Below are positions 39,901 through 43,606 of a stretch of DNA of 64,000 bases, piece by piece (within the stretch, counting starts at the first letter, position 1; each line of letters opens with the position of its first letter). The stretch covers positions 620,001-684,000 of the forward strand of contig NC_060115.1 in assembly GCF_021155765.1 (NCBI RefSeq), written 5' to 3'. The translations under genes and the position numbers were made by a program. The stretch comes from Diprion similis. Its lineage: Eukaryota; Arthropoda; Insecta; Hymenoptera; Diprionidae. Below the pieces are notes generated by a model. It did not search any database and was not told the DNA's origin. It saw nothing but the letters and a program-made list of their open reading frames with translations.

Positions 39901-42900
39901 CTAACGTCGAGTACTGTTACTGGGAACATCCTGAAGTGTACGTGTACTAATGACTTCTTGCCACCATGATGTAGAGAGTTTAGCTGATCTTGTTCTGTCC
40001 GAACTGTTGAAATCAACACTTATGATGCCGTACAATTCTCTGTAAATAAATACAATCAAGGATTTGACAATATTACAACACCATTCAGAAAAATTATTTG
40101 ATACAAGAAAATATACCCACGTGTAGCCAGCATTCCACTCAAAATTGTCCAGAAGTGACCAAATGGTGTACGCCATAACATTGCAGCCGTCATCATTGAT
40201 GGCTGTGAGCATCTCGCTGATGTATTCGTAATGATAACTGATGCGTTCATAGTCTTCCAATTCACCGCTATCAGGATATCCATTTTCGAAAACATACAAC
40301 GGTGGGTTATTGTACTGGTCTCGAATCATACGCAAAACATTACCGAATCCTTCTGGCAATACCTGTAAACCAATTAAATTACTTCAGCAAAATGGAATTG
40401 AAGCGGTTGTAAATTCGTAATAATCATAGTTTTTCTAATACTTACGTATATCCAAAAAGCACTGCTAGTTGACCAACTGGAATTGGTAGATTTGATTATT
40501 CCACTATCCCTAGTATATATGCCAAGCTCTTCGGCTGTGTCAAATATGGGCATAACTGACGTGTAGTGATTAAGACCGAAAAAGTCTGTTGTTCCACTGT
40601 AAAATAATTGCTATAAAAAGTCACGATTCAACTACGTTTATTATGACTAAATTTCGACCGGATACGAACTTTATGTACTCTATCCACTCCTGTGAAAATT
40701 CGGGTAGACGTGAAAATGGGTAATTTTCTAGCGCACTGATGTTGGCCACTCTCGTTTTTACGATTTCTGGATAGTCTCCAACATAAATGGGATGCATAAT
40801 CCAGCCGCAATCGAACTGAAAGTGTTGTTCGATGGATTCTTCGGTTACGTTGTCCCCTGGGACCCACCCGGTCGCGGACGCCAGCATTCCTATTTGGCCT
40901 TGTTGCGTCGCCCGGAACTCATCATCGTACAGATGATACGCTGTCGCATGGGCTTTCAAAGAATTGTGAACGCACAGGTAGTGGCCCATATTTTCTAATA
41001 CCTTTCCTGAATTGAAATTTGATGACATCAGTATCCGTGATAAAATTTCCCGATATGCCCTGATATGGTCAGATATGAATCGTCTAGTCAGGCCTGATAT
41101 GAAAATTGGCCACATCTGGCCTTATAGCGACAGATTAGACTATATACCACTATATCTAAATTTTTTTCACAATTATAGAACGTAGGCGTGCACCTTACTC
41201 AACAACGGCACGCAACACAATACACTCACAACCTGAACTCAGTACAATACACTATACAGATCTACCGATTCAGACTCTGGATAACTTATTATAAAACAAT
41301 TCTTCTCTAAATCTGCATTAGGAAGATGGACTTGATTTTTGAAAGTTGAAATTATAGAGAATAGAAAAATGTTTTTCAGTTGAATTTTTATTATTCTTGA
41401 TCAATTGGAACATGAAAAAAACAGAGTTTCTTTTTACCAGGGATGACTTCATGTGACTTGATATGGACATGTATACACTGATATTGTCATACAACTCTAT
41501 ATCAGAAGATATTTCACCGGAATATACAAAATGTCATTTATTAAAAATTGATTGTTTATCAAAATTTTTTGATATGACTATATATTTAAATATAGGGACA
41601 ATCGACTTTTCTTACGATTATTAGTATTTTGTGAAAAATTTGATGTTTTGAAAAGGAAAATCGATTGTCTTGACGATCATTAGTATTTCGTAAAAATTTC
41701 GATATTTTACCACAGAACACTTGAGGAACTTCACGAAAAATATGATGTTTTATGTTTTTGAGCCATTATTTCGTAATGAAATATAAAAAAATTGTGGAAA
41801 TCTAGTCAGATATAGCCATATCGATTTACATATAATTTTCAGCCGTGACAACATATGGGACCTATCAAACTGTATATGGGCTTATCAGAAAATTTTTGAA
41901 GGGTATATCACACAGAATTTGAACTTTCTTTTAATAAAGAGTAGTCATCGTACCTGGAGCTGCTGCAGTAGTTGAGTTATATCCATTTTCGCAAGATATT
42001 TTTGGCTCGTTCATCGTGATGAAGGTTTTCACCATGGGTCCCAATTCCTCGAAAATAACTCTCGCGTAATCAGTGTACCACTCGACCATCAATTCGTTTG
42101 TCCATCCACCCAAATCTTCAAGAATCTGTGGGTGGTCCCAGTGATATATTGTCACGACGGGCTCAATACCGTTATCAATCAGAGCTTGGGTTAAATTTTT
42201 GTAATATTGAAGCCCATCCTCGCTGACTTCGTTGGCAAAACCGTTTGGAAGTATGCGTGCCCAGCTTACCGAAAACCGGTAAAAATCCACCTGAAAAATT
42301 AAACGTTTGGAATGTGTAACATCAATGTTATATGGAGATGGTCGTCTTCTGACATTGTCCGCATCACAATTTTGGCAGCTACTTCCCAAACGGCTAGAAA
42401 AGAAAGTACTTGGTTGCGGGTTGTTCGCCTTATTGAAGTGCTAACGCACACCTGTCAGCTGGGTTCTACTTCTTAAGATTAGCCATCTCCAAATACAAAG
42501 ACGATAGAATGTTGAATGTGATTCACAGAAGTTTGGCAGTTTAAGGCTGATAGAATAGTTTAAATGATGTTCGACCAGTATATGGTGAATGAACGAACGG
42601 ATCTTTGGGCGAAGACGAATTTGGGCAGGTGAGTCAAAAGGCGATCCGTAACCTGTCTTGGACACTCTTTACAAGCCTGTCACCAAGGAGTCCAGCGCTC
42701 GATTCACCGTATAGCCCGTTGGGTGACTTGGTGGAAAAGATCATGGTGAGTCTATCCTCTCCGAGGCTGGTGAACTCGTGGATCCCTTCTTACTCCAGTG
42801 GCAAGCCGCGAACGAGCTTGTGAACTGGCCTTCTGGACCTTGGTGAGAACTTTTTTCAGCCGCCTCGTCGTTATTAACTGGTATTCGGCTGTCAAGGTTT

Positions 42901-43606
42901 TCCTCAGGTCGGCTCGGTTGGTCTGTCACCGTGGAATTTGGGCTTTGGTCGGAGCTACTGGGGAATCGGGCGCTGTTAACCCCTGGCGTGGCGTTGCACA
43001 ACCAGGTGCGAGTTTGGGAAATTAAATGGACCACCTTTCAATTCACTTGCTAAGGTTCGTGCCGGCTGCCTACGGAATTTGCTGATGCCACAGCAGGATT
43101 ACTGGGTCATCCGCGGTCGTCGGGCGATGGAACTGAAGACTCAATCGTAACAGTAACATCGGCAGTCACAGGTATTTAAACTTACTCCCAGGTCTTTCAA
43201 CCATTGTACATCTTCTTCATATTTATGGTAGGAGTCGCAGGCTATATCCCCATTACTTCCGTCTGTGATGTATCCCGGATTGTCGTGTGTGAACCGATCC
43301 CAAATGCTTTCTGCTTTGTCTACATTTATGGCATAACAAAACATTATGGATGAAGAATCAGTTTTTATTTGATGAAAACAAATACTGAATACTCACCACT
43401 TACGTTCCAGGCTCCTTCGATTTGGTAGGCTGAGGTGGCAACACCAATTGTGAAATTCTCAGGAAAACTGAGTGTAGCGGCTTGACATTCTTTTACCCTG
43501 GGAAATACACCGAATTAGAATATTCTTTAATTAGAAAATGAAGCAGCAATTGCACTTACCCTGCAAAAATCACACAGAAAATCACAATCTTCCACTTATG
43601 TGTCAT
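39901..43606 (-). CDS. GH1-3: secreted family 1 beta-glucosidase/myrosinase-like, 495 aa; mosaic of GH1-5 and GH1-4
   Basis: Eight exons: 43560-43606, 43397-43497, 43186-43319, 41954-42290, 40670-41006, 40446-40596, 40121-40362 and 39901-40039 (1488 nt with stop). Signal peptide [17 protein letters not shown]1 motifs: Y-Q-I-E-G-A-W, Y-H-W-D-H-P, acid/base Glu189 in T-M-N-E-P, F-G-L-N-H-Y-T, nucleophile Glu395 in [16 protein letters not shown]-glycosylation sequons (for example N-V-T, N-I-S, N-S-S) fit secretion. Exons 1-3, the start of exon 4 and intron 3 resemble GH1-5. The rest of exon 4 and exons 5-8 with their introns are almost identical to GH1-4. Introns 3 and 4 are long because of insertions (42613-43127 and about 41030-41905). 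The frame is open, so the gene looks functional. Upstream DNA is shared with GH1-5. Confidence 0.92.
41030..41905. mobile_element. Insertion in GH1-3 intron 4, unclassified
   Basis: The matching intron of GH1-4 is only 74 nt (47495-47418 side) and aligns with the two edges of this intron, leaving about 870 bp extra here. The extra DNA is AT-rich with many GATATG words and an imperfect internal tandem (41599-41655 against 41659-41715, both with ATTAGTATTT). I find no coding frame and no convincing terminal repeats. It could be a non-autonomous element. Confidence 0.55.
42613..43127. mobile_element. Insertion in GH1-3 intron 3 flanked by GGGCGA repeats
   Basis: The homologous intron of GH1-5 contains a single GGGCGA (51086 region: CTGGGCGACTGAG). 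In GH1-3, GGGCGA occurs at 42607-42612 and 43122-43127 with about 509 bp between. This looks like a target-site duplication around an insertion. The inserted DNA is noticeably more GC-rich than the surrounding intron. It lacks TG...CA ends and obvious inverted ends, so its class is unclear. Confidence 0.6.

Follow-up and report, generated by a model that had tools for sequence, protein, structure and literature searches.

Chimeras between tandem paralogues are well known. In deletion fusions of the haemoglobin Lepore type, a misaligned crossover has merged two adjacent tandem genes, one contributing the 5′ part and the other the 3′ part. Here we describe GH1-3, a chimeric glycoside hydrolase family 1 (GH1) gene at positions 39901-43606 on the minus strand of the window, i.e., the whole 64,000-nucleotide stretch that was analyzed (C11:620001-684000, from an assembly of 269 Mb and 60 contigs). 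As in Lepore, the front of one tandem gene is joined to the back of a neighbor; however, a Lepore chromosome has lost its parent genes, whereas the two parent-like genes of GH1-3 both remain, namely GH1-5 for the 5′ part (49135-51567, minus strand) and GH1-4 for the 3′ part (46314-48317, minus strand).

CYP337B3 of the cotton bollworm, Helicoverpa armigera, is described as a chimeric P450 derived from CYP337B2 and CYP337B1 (PMC6211633). Like GH1-3, it is reported to owe a large share of its 5′ coding end to one paralogue, and its intron and later coding sequence to a relative, with a breakpoint in coding sequence, and the report ascribes it to unequal crossing-over (PMC6211633). Unlike GH1-3, CYP337B3 segregates in populations, with eight or more alleles that likely go back to several crossovers, and has demonstrated activity on fenvalerate, according to the same report (PMC6211633); GH1-3, in contrast, comes from one genome, has diverged from both parents (synonymous divergence, dS, ~0.15), and bears a probable later conversion tract. 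Intrachromosomal chimeras of tandem paralogues are also described for stickleback spiggin, although these belong to a different family, and the evidence given for them is ten transcripts plus a small number of genes sequenced in part (PMC4989455). In GH1 itself, an insect survey attributed 140 of 239 genes in selected species to tandem duplication, so that those arrays share both the family and the mode of expansion with the one examined here; the terms “gene conversion,” “recombin,” and “chimer” do not occur in its main text (PMC9500737). No published report of the GH1-3 gene was found among titles and abstract openings, which for some listings covered part of the entries, and this is not proof of absence. 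Given the known cases, the novelty of GH1-3 is modest.

GH1-3 is a true hybrid of a GH1-5-like front and a GH1-4-like remainder. Positions 39901-43606 run exactly from its stop codon to its ATG and encode 495 amino acids in an open frame of eight exons with GT-AG introns (exons 1 to 4 at 43606-43560, 43497-43397, 43319-43186, and 42290-41954; exons 5 to 8 at 41006-40670, 40596-40446, 40362-40121, and 40039-39901; all on the minus strand). Sites of the codon alignment were termed informative where GH1-3 agrees with just one of GH1-4 and GH1-5 (n = 339). GH1-5 was favored at 75 of the first 84 sites and GH1-4 at 241 of the last 255. The optimal switch falls between 42243, the last GH1-5 site, and 42234, the first GH1-4 site, and is followed by 43 bases (42233-42191) that are identical in GH1-3, GH1-4, and GH1-5, which places the breakpoint zone at 42191-42243 on the minus strand. 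The likelihood ratio (LR) of this switch was 112, compared with a maximum of 12.4 among 10,000 permutations, none of which reached it, and third codon positions alone gave the same place. An earlier note, made from the letters of the window, had proposed a change of nearest paralogue across exon 4 at about 42195-42250, and the breakpoint scan bears it out.

The GH1-5-like part (42243-43606, minus strand) takes in a signal-peptide-like exon 1, exons 2 and 3, introns 1 to 3, and the start of exon 4, as that note had also claimed for the exons and intron 3. For introns 1 and 2, identity is 87-88% with GH1-5 (17 of 138 positions differ) and 51-53% with GH1-4, and in the alignable part of intron 3, 81 of 377 positions differ from GH1-5. 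The GH1-4-like part (39901-42234, minus strand) comprises the rest of exon 4, exons 5 to 8, introns 5 to 7, and the ends of intron 4; introns 5 to 7 are 86-99% identical to GH1-4 and 49-58% identical to GH1-5, and exons 5 to 8 together with introns 5 to 7 differ from GH1-4 at 58 of 1,106 positions. The assignment of this body to GH1-4 thus stands for the later part of exon 4 and exons 5 to 8, but the description of its introns as matching almost base for base does not hold for all of them, as intron 6 differs at 12 of 83 positions and intron 4 carries an insert of ~884 base pairs (bp; 41033-41916) that is absent from GH1-4 to GH1-7. This insert is in part a dispersed repeat, with parts matching at least 64 places in the genome, itself included, at 76-95% identity (40 of 97 candidates scored). 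A second insert, in intron 3 (42613-43121), is absent from GH1-5 and has two distant genome matches, at 69% and 72%. GH1-3 keeps seven introns, which follow the same parents as the exons, and because they are kept it is not a retrocopy. In DNA searches of the whole 269-Mb assembly, GH1-5 ranked next after GH1-3 itself for the 5′ part (81% identity; 40 of 202 candidates scored) and GH1-4 did so for the 3′ part (89%; 7 of 7 scored), and no further near-identical copy of either part was present among the matches listed.

Trees of the codon sequences of all 21 GH1 genes in the assembly, computed separately for the 5′ and 3′ parts, conflict in the same manner. The 5′ tree pairs GH1-3 with GH1-5 (support 100/99) and the 3′ tree pairs it with GH1-4 (100/100), and approximately unbiased (AU) tests reject the swapped pairs, with p-AU values of 0.002 and 0.00015. 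Across 3,420 triplets of 20 of the 21 genes (g1 was left out), that of GH1-3 with GH1-4 and GH1-5 gave the strongest signal, with an LR of 86.9. The three next-ranked triplets (LR 33.0, 32.6, and 32.3) and others that involve c6b were rejected as artefacts; the c6b stretch ends before exon 8, and its exon-8 match is false.

The three-way distances identify which gene is recombinant. GH1-4 and GH1-5 differ at 15 of 27 four-fold sites in the 5′ part and at 56 of 103 in the 3′ part (p = 1), and at 34 of 110 and 89 of 347 residues, respectively (p = 0.32). From the 5′ to the 3′ part, four-fold differences of GH1-3 fall from 14 of 25 to 10 of 123 against GH1-4 and rise from 4 of 36 to 55 of 100 against GH1-5, and dS agrees. 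Since GH1-4 and GH1-5 are equally distant on both sides while GH1-3 flips, the recombinant gene is GH1-3 and not a neighbor.

The DNA flanking GH1-3 belongs to different parents on the two sides. The GH1-5-like 5′ flank (43607-44384, minus strand) consists of three matching pieces: 43612-43959 resembles 51573-51920 at 74% identity; 43960-44186 resembles 52114-52338 at 82%, with 193 bp more in GH1-5 between these two pieces; and 44195-44384 resembles 54665-54854, past a transposon-like element found beside GH1-5 only. The third piece includes a dispersed repeat and is hence given less weight. The element (52337-54665) has terminal inverted repeats of ~540 bp that are 97% alike, and its three open frames matched no Pfam family. 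The GH1-4-like 3′ flank (38287-39900, minus strand) is made up of two blocks with unmatched sequence between them. In block B, 39484-39900 resembles 45899-46313, and 39439-39568 also resembles 45201-45325; in block C, 38287-38494 resembles 44982-45203. The flanks therefore follow GH1-5 upstream and GH1-4 downstream, as had been noted earlier, although the closeness of the match had been overstated, at just ~74-82% identity. From the upstream flank of GH1-3 onward, the sequence passes through a relic of GH1-2, an extra relic of block B, block C, and block B before reaching GH1-4. The GH1-2 relic (44520-44635, minus strand; 116 bp) holds the end of intron 5 and the start of exon 6 and is 90% identical to 36519-36632, and the extra block-B relic (44668-44966) is 77% identical to 39439-39730.

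Divergence from the parents gives similar ages for the two halves. dS was 0.169 (0.070-0.283) between the 5′ part and GH1-5 and 0.148 (0.093-0.215) between the 3′ part and GH1-4, the latter with a conversion tract excluded; introns 1 and 2 against GH1-5 (17/138) and introns 6 and 7 against GH1-4 (15/164) did not differ significantly (p = 0.45). Nor did the flanks, with 90 of 352 positions differing on the 5′ side and 100 of 412 on the 3′ side (p = 0.74), and in the intron piece of the GH1-2 relic 6 of 53 positions differ. As the ages of both halves match, one event can account for both.

The excluded tract (40561-40860, minus strand) shows one difference in 300 aligned bases between GH1-3 and GH1-4, which none of 5,000 shuffles matched, and is probably a later conversion between these two genes. 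A second tract, between GH1-4 and GH1-5, covers the breakpoint. These two genes are 75.5% identical over their coding alignment, and at 42253-42154 they are identical at 96 of 100 positions (0 of 5,000 shuffles), with the 43-base identical run lying inside this tract (10 of 2,000 shuffles). Because GH1-6 and GH1-7 differ from GH1-4 and GH1-5 at its silent sites, with dS point estimates above 1 and wide intervals, constraint alone is insufficient to explain it. On these sequence comparisons, an earlier GH1-4/GH1-5 exchange seems to have supplied the homology for the fusion, with the breakpoint falling within that tract.

We consider it probable, on balance, that GH1-3 was made by ectopic homologous recombination in the tandem array, through a block duplication and a GH1-4/GH1-5 fusion, then conversion. 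Exchange between tandem copies, which the earlier note had also put forward as the origin, fits the tree conflict, the sharp breakpoint, and the three-way distance test, and recombination is preferred because no rival that we weighed fits all of these together. In the direction of transcription the genes are ordered GH1-5, GH1-4, GH1-3, GH1-2, and from this order we infer that a second copy was needed: a single crossover deletes the rest of GH1-4 and GH1-5, and therefore either a block was duplicated or a fusion allele came to stand in tandem with a normal one. In the former case, the block duplicated in tandem would have started within GH1-2, spanned GH1-4, and ended in the 5′ flank of GH1-5, and in one copy a deletion-type (Lepore-type) crossover in exon 4 would have fused the GH1-5 front to the GH1-4 back, within the ~100-bp tract that earlier gene conversion would have made nearly identical between the two. 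Alternatively, the fusion may have come first, in another allele, followed by tandem joining, with the same outcome. Conversion would later have re-homogenized ~300 bp of GH1-3 and GH1-4. The GH1-2 relic sits at the expected duplication junction, beside the GH1-5-type flank and adjoined by the extra block-B relic, and the order of relics and blocks between GH1-3 and GH1-4 is close to that expected from duplication and loss of the middle.

Several observations weigh against this history. The extra block-B relic is out of the expected order and, like the 135 unassigned bases at 44385-44519, goes unexplained, and the duplication step rests on the 116-bp relic and the flank order. The 3′ flank is more diverged than introns 5 to 7 (p = 4.8e-9) and than introns 6 and 7 (p = 2.6e-5), as is the 5′ flank relative to introns 1 and 2 (p = 0.0015). 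Excluding the conversion tract makes one age sufficient for both halves, but the flank-intron contrast is still significant. The flank excess may reflect a faster flank rate, as the flank/intron divergence ratios here are ~2.1 and 2.7 (3.6 with the conversion tract included) and those in six control pairs of the array range from 0.93 to 2.7; it may instead reflect a second, older event in the flanks, so that the locus would have two ages, with older flanks around a younger body. When GH1-4 is compared with GH1-6, the window of highest conservation likewise falls at the breakpoint (88 of 100 positions; 299 of 5,000 shuffles), so conservation adds to the tract shared by GH1-4 and GH1-5. Lastly, the partner of GH1-5 is GH1-6 in the 3′ tree (95/94), but in the 5′ tree it is GH1-3, with GH1-4 adjacent; four-fold sites likewise put GH1-5 nearer to GH1-6 in the 3′ part (45 of 101 differ) than in the 5′ part (18 of 26; p = 0.03), so that GH1-5 may have had an exchange of its own.

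Among other explanations, conversion by itself has the best claim, although we regard it as distinctly less probable than fusion with duplication. GH1-3 would then have started as a full copy of GH1-5, with one or several tracts of GH1-4 sequence later replacing its body and 3′ flank, and conversion tracts are indeed present (the 300-bp GH1-3/GH1-4 tract and that between GH1-4 and GH1-5), while the body of GH1-3 is closer to GH1-4 than its 3′ flank is. However, the GH1-4-like sequence does not stop at the gene but continues for ~1.6 kb, taking in blocks B and C, no match to the 3′ flank of GH1-5 was found beyond GH1-3, the 5′ and 3′ flanks are equally diverged, and the GH1-2 relic is left unexplained. 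The affinity of GH1-5 with GH1-6 would also be in keeping with GH1-5 being the recombinant, its 3′ half having come from a GH1-6-like copy, or, in a variant of the same idea, GH1-4 could have been overwritten by GH1-3. This is improbable, as the GH1-4/GH1-5 distance is uniform while both GH1-3 distances flip, the 3′ divergence of GH1-5 and GH1-6 is near saturation (dS 1.6) and leaves no recent donor, and two events would be required.

Tandem repeats are prone to false joins, and the locus was judged from assembled sequence, so reads of GH1-4 and GH1-5 could in principle have been wrongly joined. Such a join would be near-identical to the parents, but the noncoding DNA of GH1-3 differs by 12-26% from GH1-5 and by 7-24% from GH1-4, introns 3 and 4 hold private inserts, and the searches described above (40 of 202 and 7 of 7 candidates scored) listed no second near-identical copy of either part; a simple assembly join is unlikely, and we give an artefact of this kind very little credence. 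Still less credible is that uneven rates or selection, with no recombination, mimicked the different nearest paralogues: the switch is just as sharp in introns and at third positions as at the remaining sites, the AU tests reject the swapped clades, and no point in favor of this explanation was found in our analyses.

The GH1-3 protein matches the GH1 profile PF00232 across the entire catalytic domain, with 457.4 bits over residues 26-483 (profile positions 4-451 of 453), and the motifs TMNEP (E189) and VFENG (E395), both of which also occur in GH1-4 to GH1-7, are retained within its GH1-4-type part; we take the glutamate of T-x-N-E-P to be the acid/base and that of E-N-G to be the nucleophile. 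The closest solved structures include 8in1, a beta-glucosidase with two GH1 domains, as well as the beta-glucosidase 3ahz, presumably from a termite, and the thioglucosidase 1wcg, presumably the aphid myrosinase. The junction falls at residues 110-113, which we take to lie after barrel strand 2 and before helix 2. In exon 1 the hydrophobic N terminus is identical to that of GH1-5, and GH1-4 has a first exon of its own with a hydrophobic N terminus; the suggestion that a secretion signal was joined to another enzyme body thus holds in that the signal was swapped, but not in the sense that one was gained. Most likely, GH1-3 encodes a secreted beta-glucosidase whose catalytic part is of the GH1-4 type and whose upstream control is of the GH1-5 type, and it would be driven by the GH1-5-type upstream DNA, a putative promoter.

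Pairwise ratios of nonsynonymous to synonymous divergence (omega), each of which includes the parent’s own branch, were 0.35 (0.16-0.83) for GH1-3 with GH1-5 and 0.32 (0.18-0.58) for GH1-3 with GH1-4; older GH1 pairs gave ~0.1. The 3′ part has 27 private sites in GH1-3 versus 14 in GH1-4 (p = 0.06), and GH1-3 may be evolving somewhat faster. Amino acid changes specific to GH1-3 seem clustered at residues 55-69, 193-209, 247-251, and 363-368, which are possibly active-site loops.

Seven GH1 genes lie on the minus strand of the window, and eight more follow beyond it up to C11:712472, making 15 in one array. The 21 genes of the assembly are distributed over this array (C11, 651-712 kb), C11 at ~857 kb, C6 (three genes), C3, and C1. 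Gene models were rebuilt for GH1-3 to GH1-7; all five consist of eight exons separated by GT-AG introns, with open frames that encode 492-495 residues. Ants, bees, and sawflies carry one to four GH1 genes according to the insect survey (PMC9500737); if the insect is a sawfly, 21 genes are a large expansion, and it was unreported in the literature listings on the topic. In the triplet scan, GH1-11 changes its affinity within exon 8, from GH1-8 to GH1-12 (LR 25.3), and GH1-10 gave a mosaic signal between GH1-9 and GH1-8 (LR 18.5), which suggests other, weaker exchanges within the array.

To the left of the array, open frames resemble those of UDP-glycosyltransferases; for one of them the PF00201 match is right at the cutoff, and a second scanned piece had no Pfam match. 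Two UDP-glycosyltransferase-like tandem copies (21550-23864 and 25823-28137) differ at 72 of 2,315 ungapped positions, mostly near their ends, and the adjoining stretches (23866-25487 and 28314-29901) are merely 85% alike, so this pair was possibly also shaped by gene conversion.

In a single step, exchange between tandem copies can bring an enzyme under the control region and secretion signal of another. At this locus the chimera has survived together with its parent-like genes, the breakpoint is narrow, and a later conversion tract is probable; these features make the history of the event readable and its effects on expression and substrate testable. GH1-3 also indicates that insect GH1 trees built from whole sequences can mislead. 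A bolder idea, to which we assign a rather small probability, is that the exon-4 tract common to GH1-3, GH1-4, and GH1-5 serves repeatedly as a site of recombination, at which upstream control and the N-terminal barrel portion are reassorted relative to the catalytic remainder. If true, the array would yield regulatory-catalytic GH1 recombinants and would thereby be a standing source of new plant-glucoside hydrolases.

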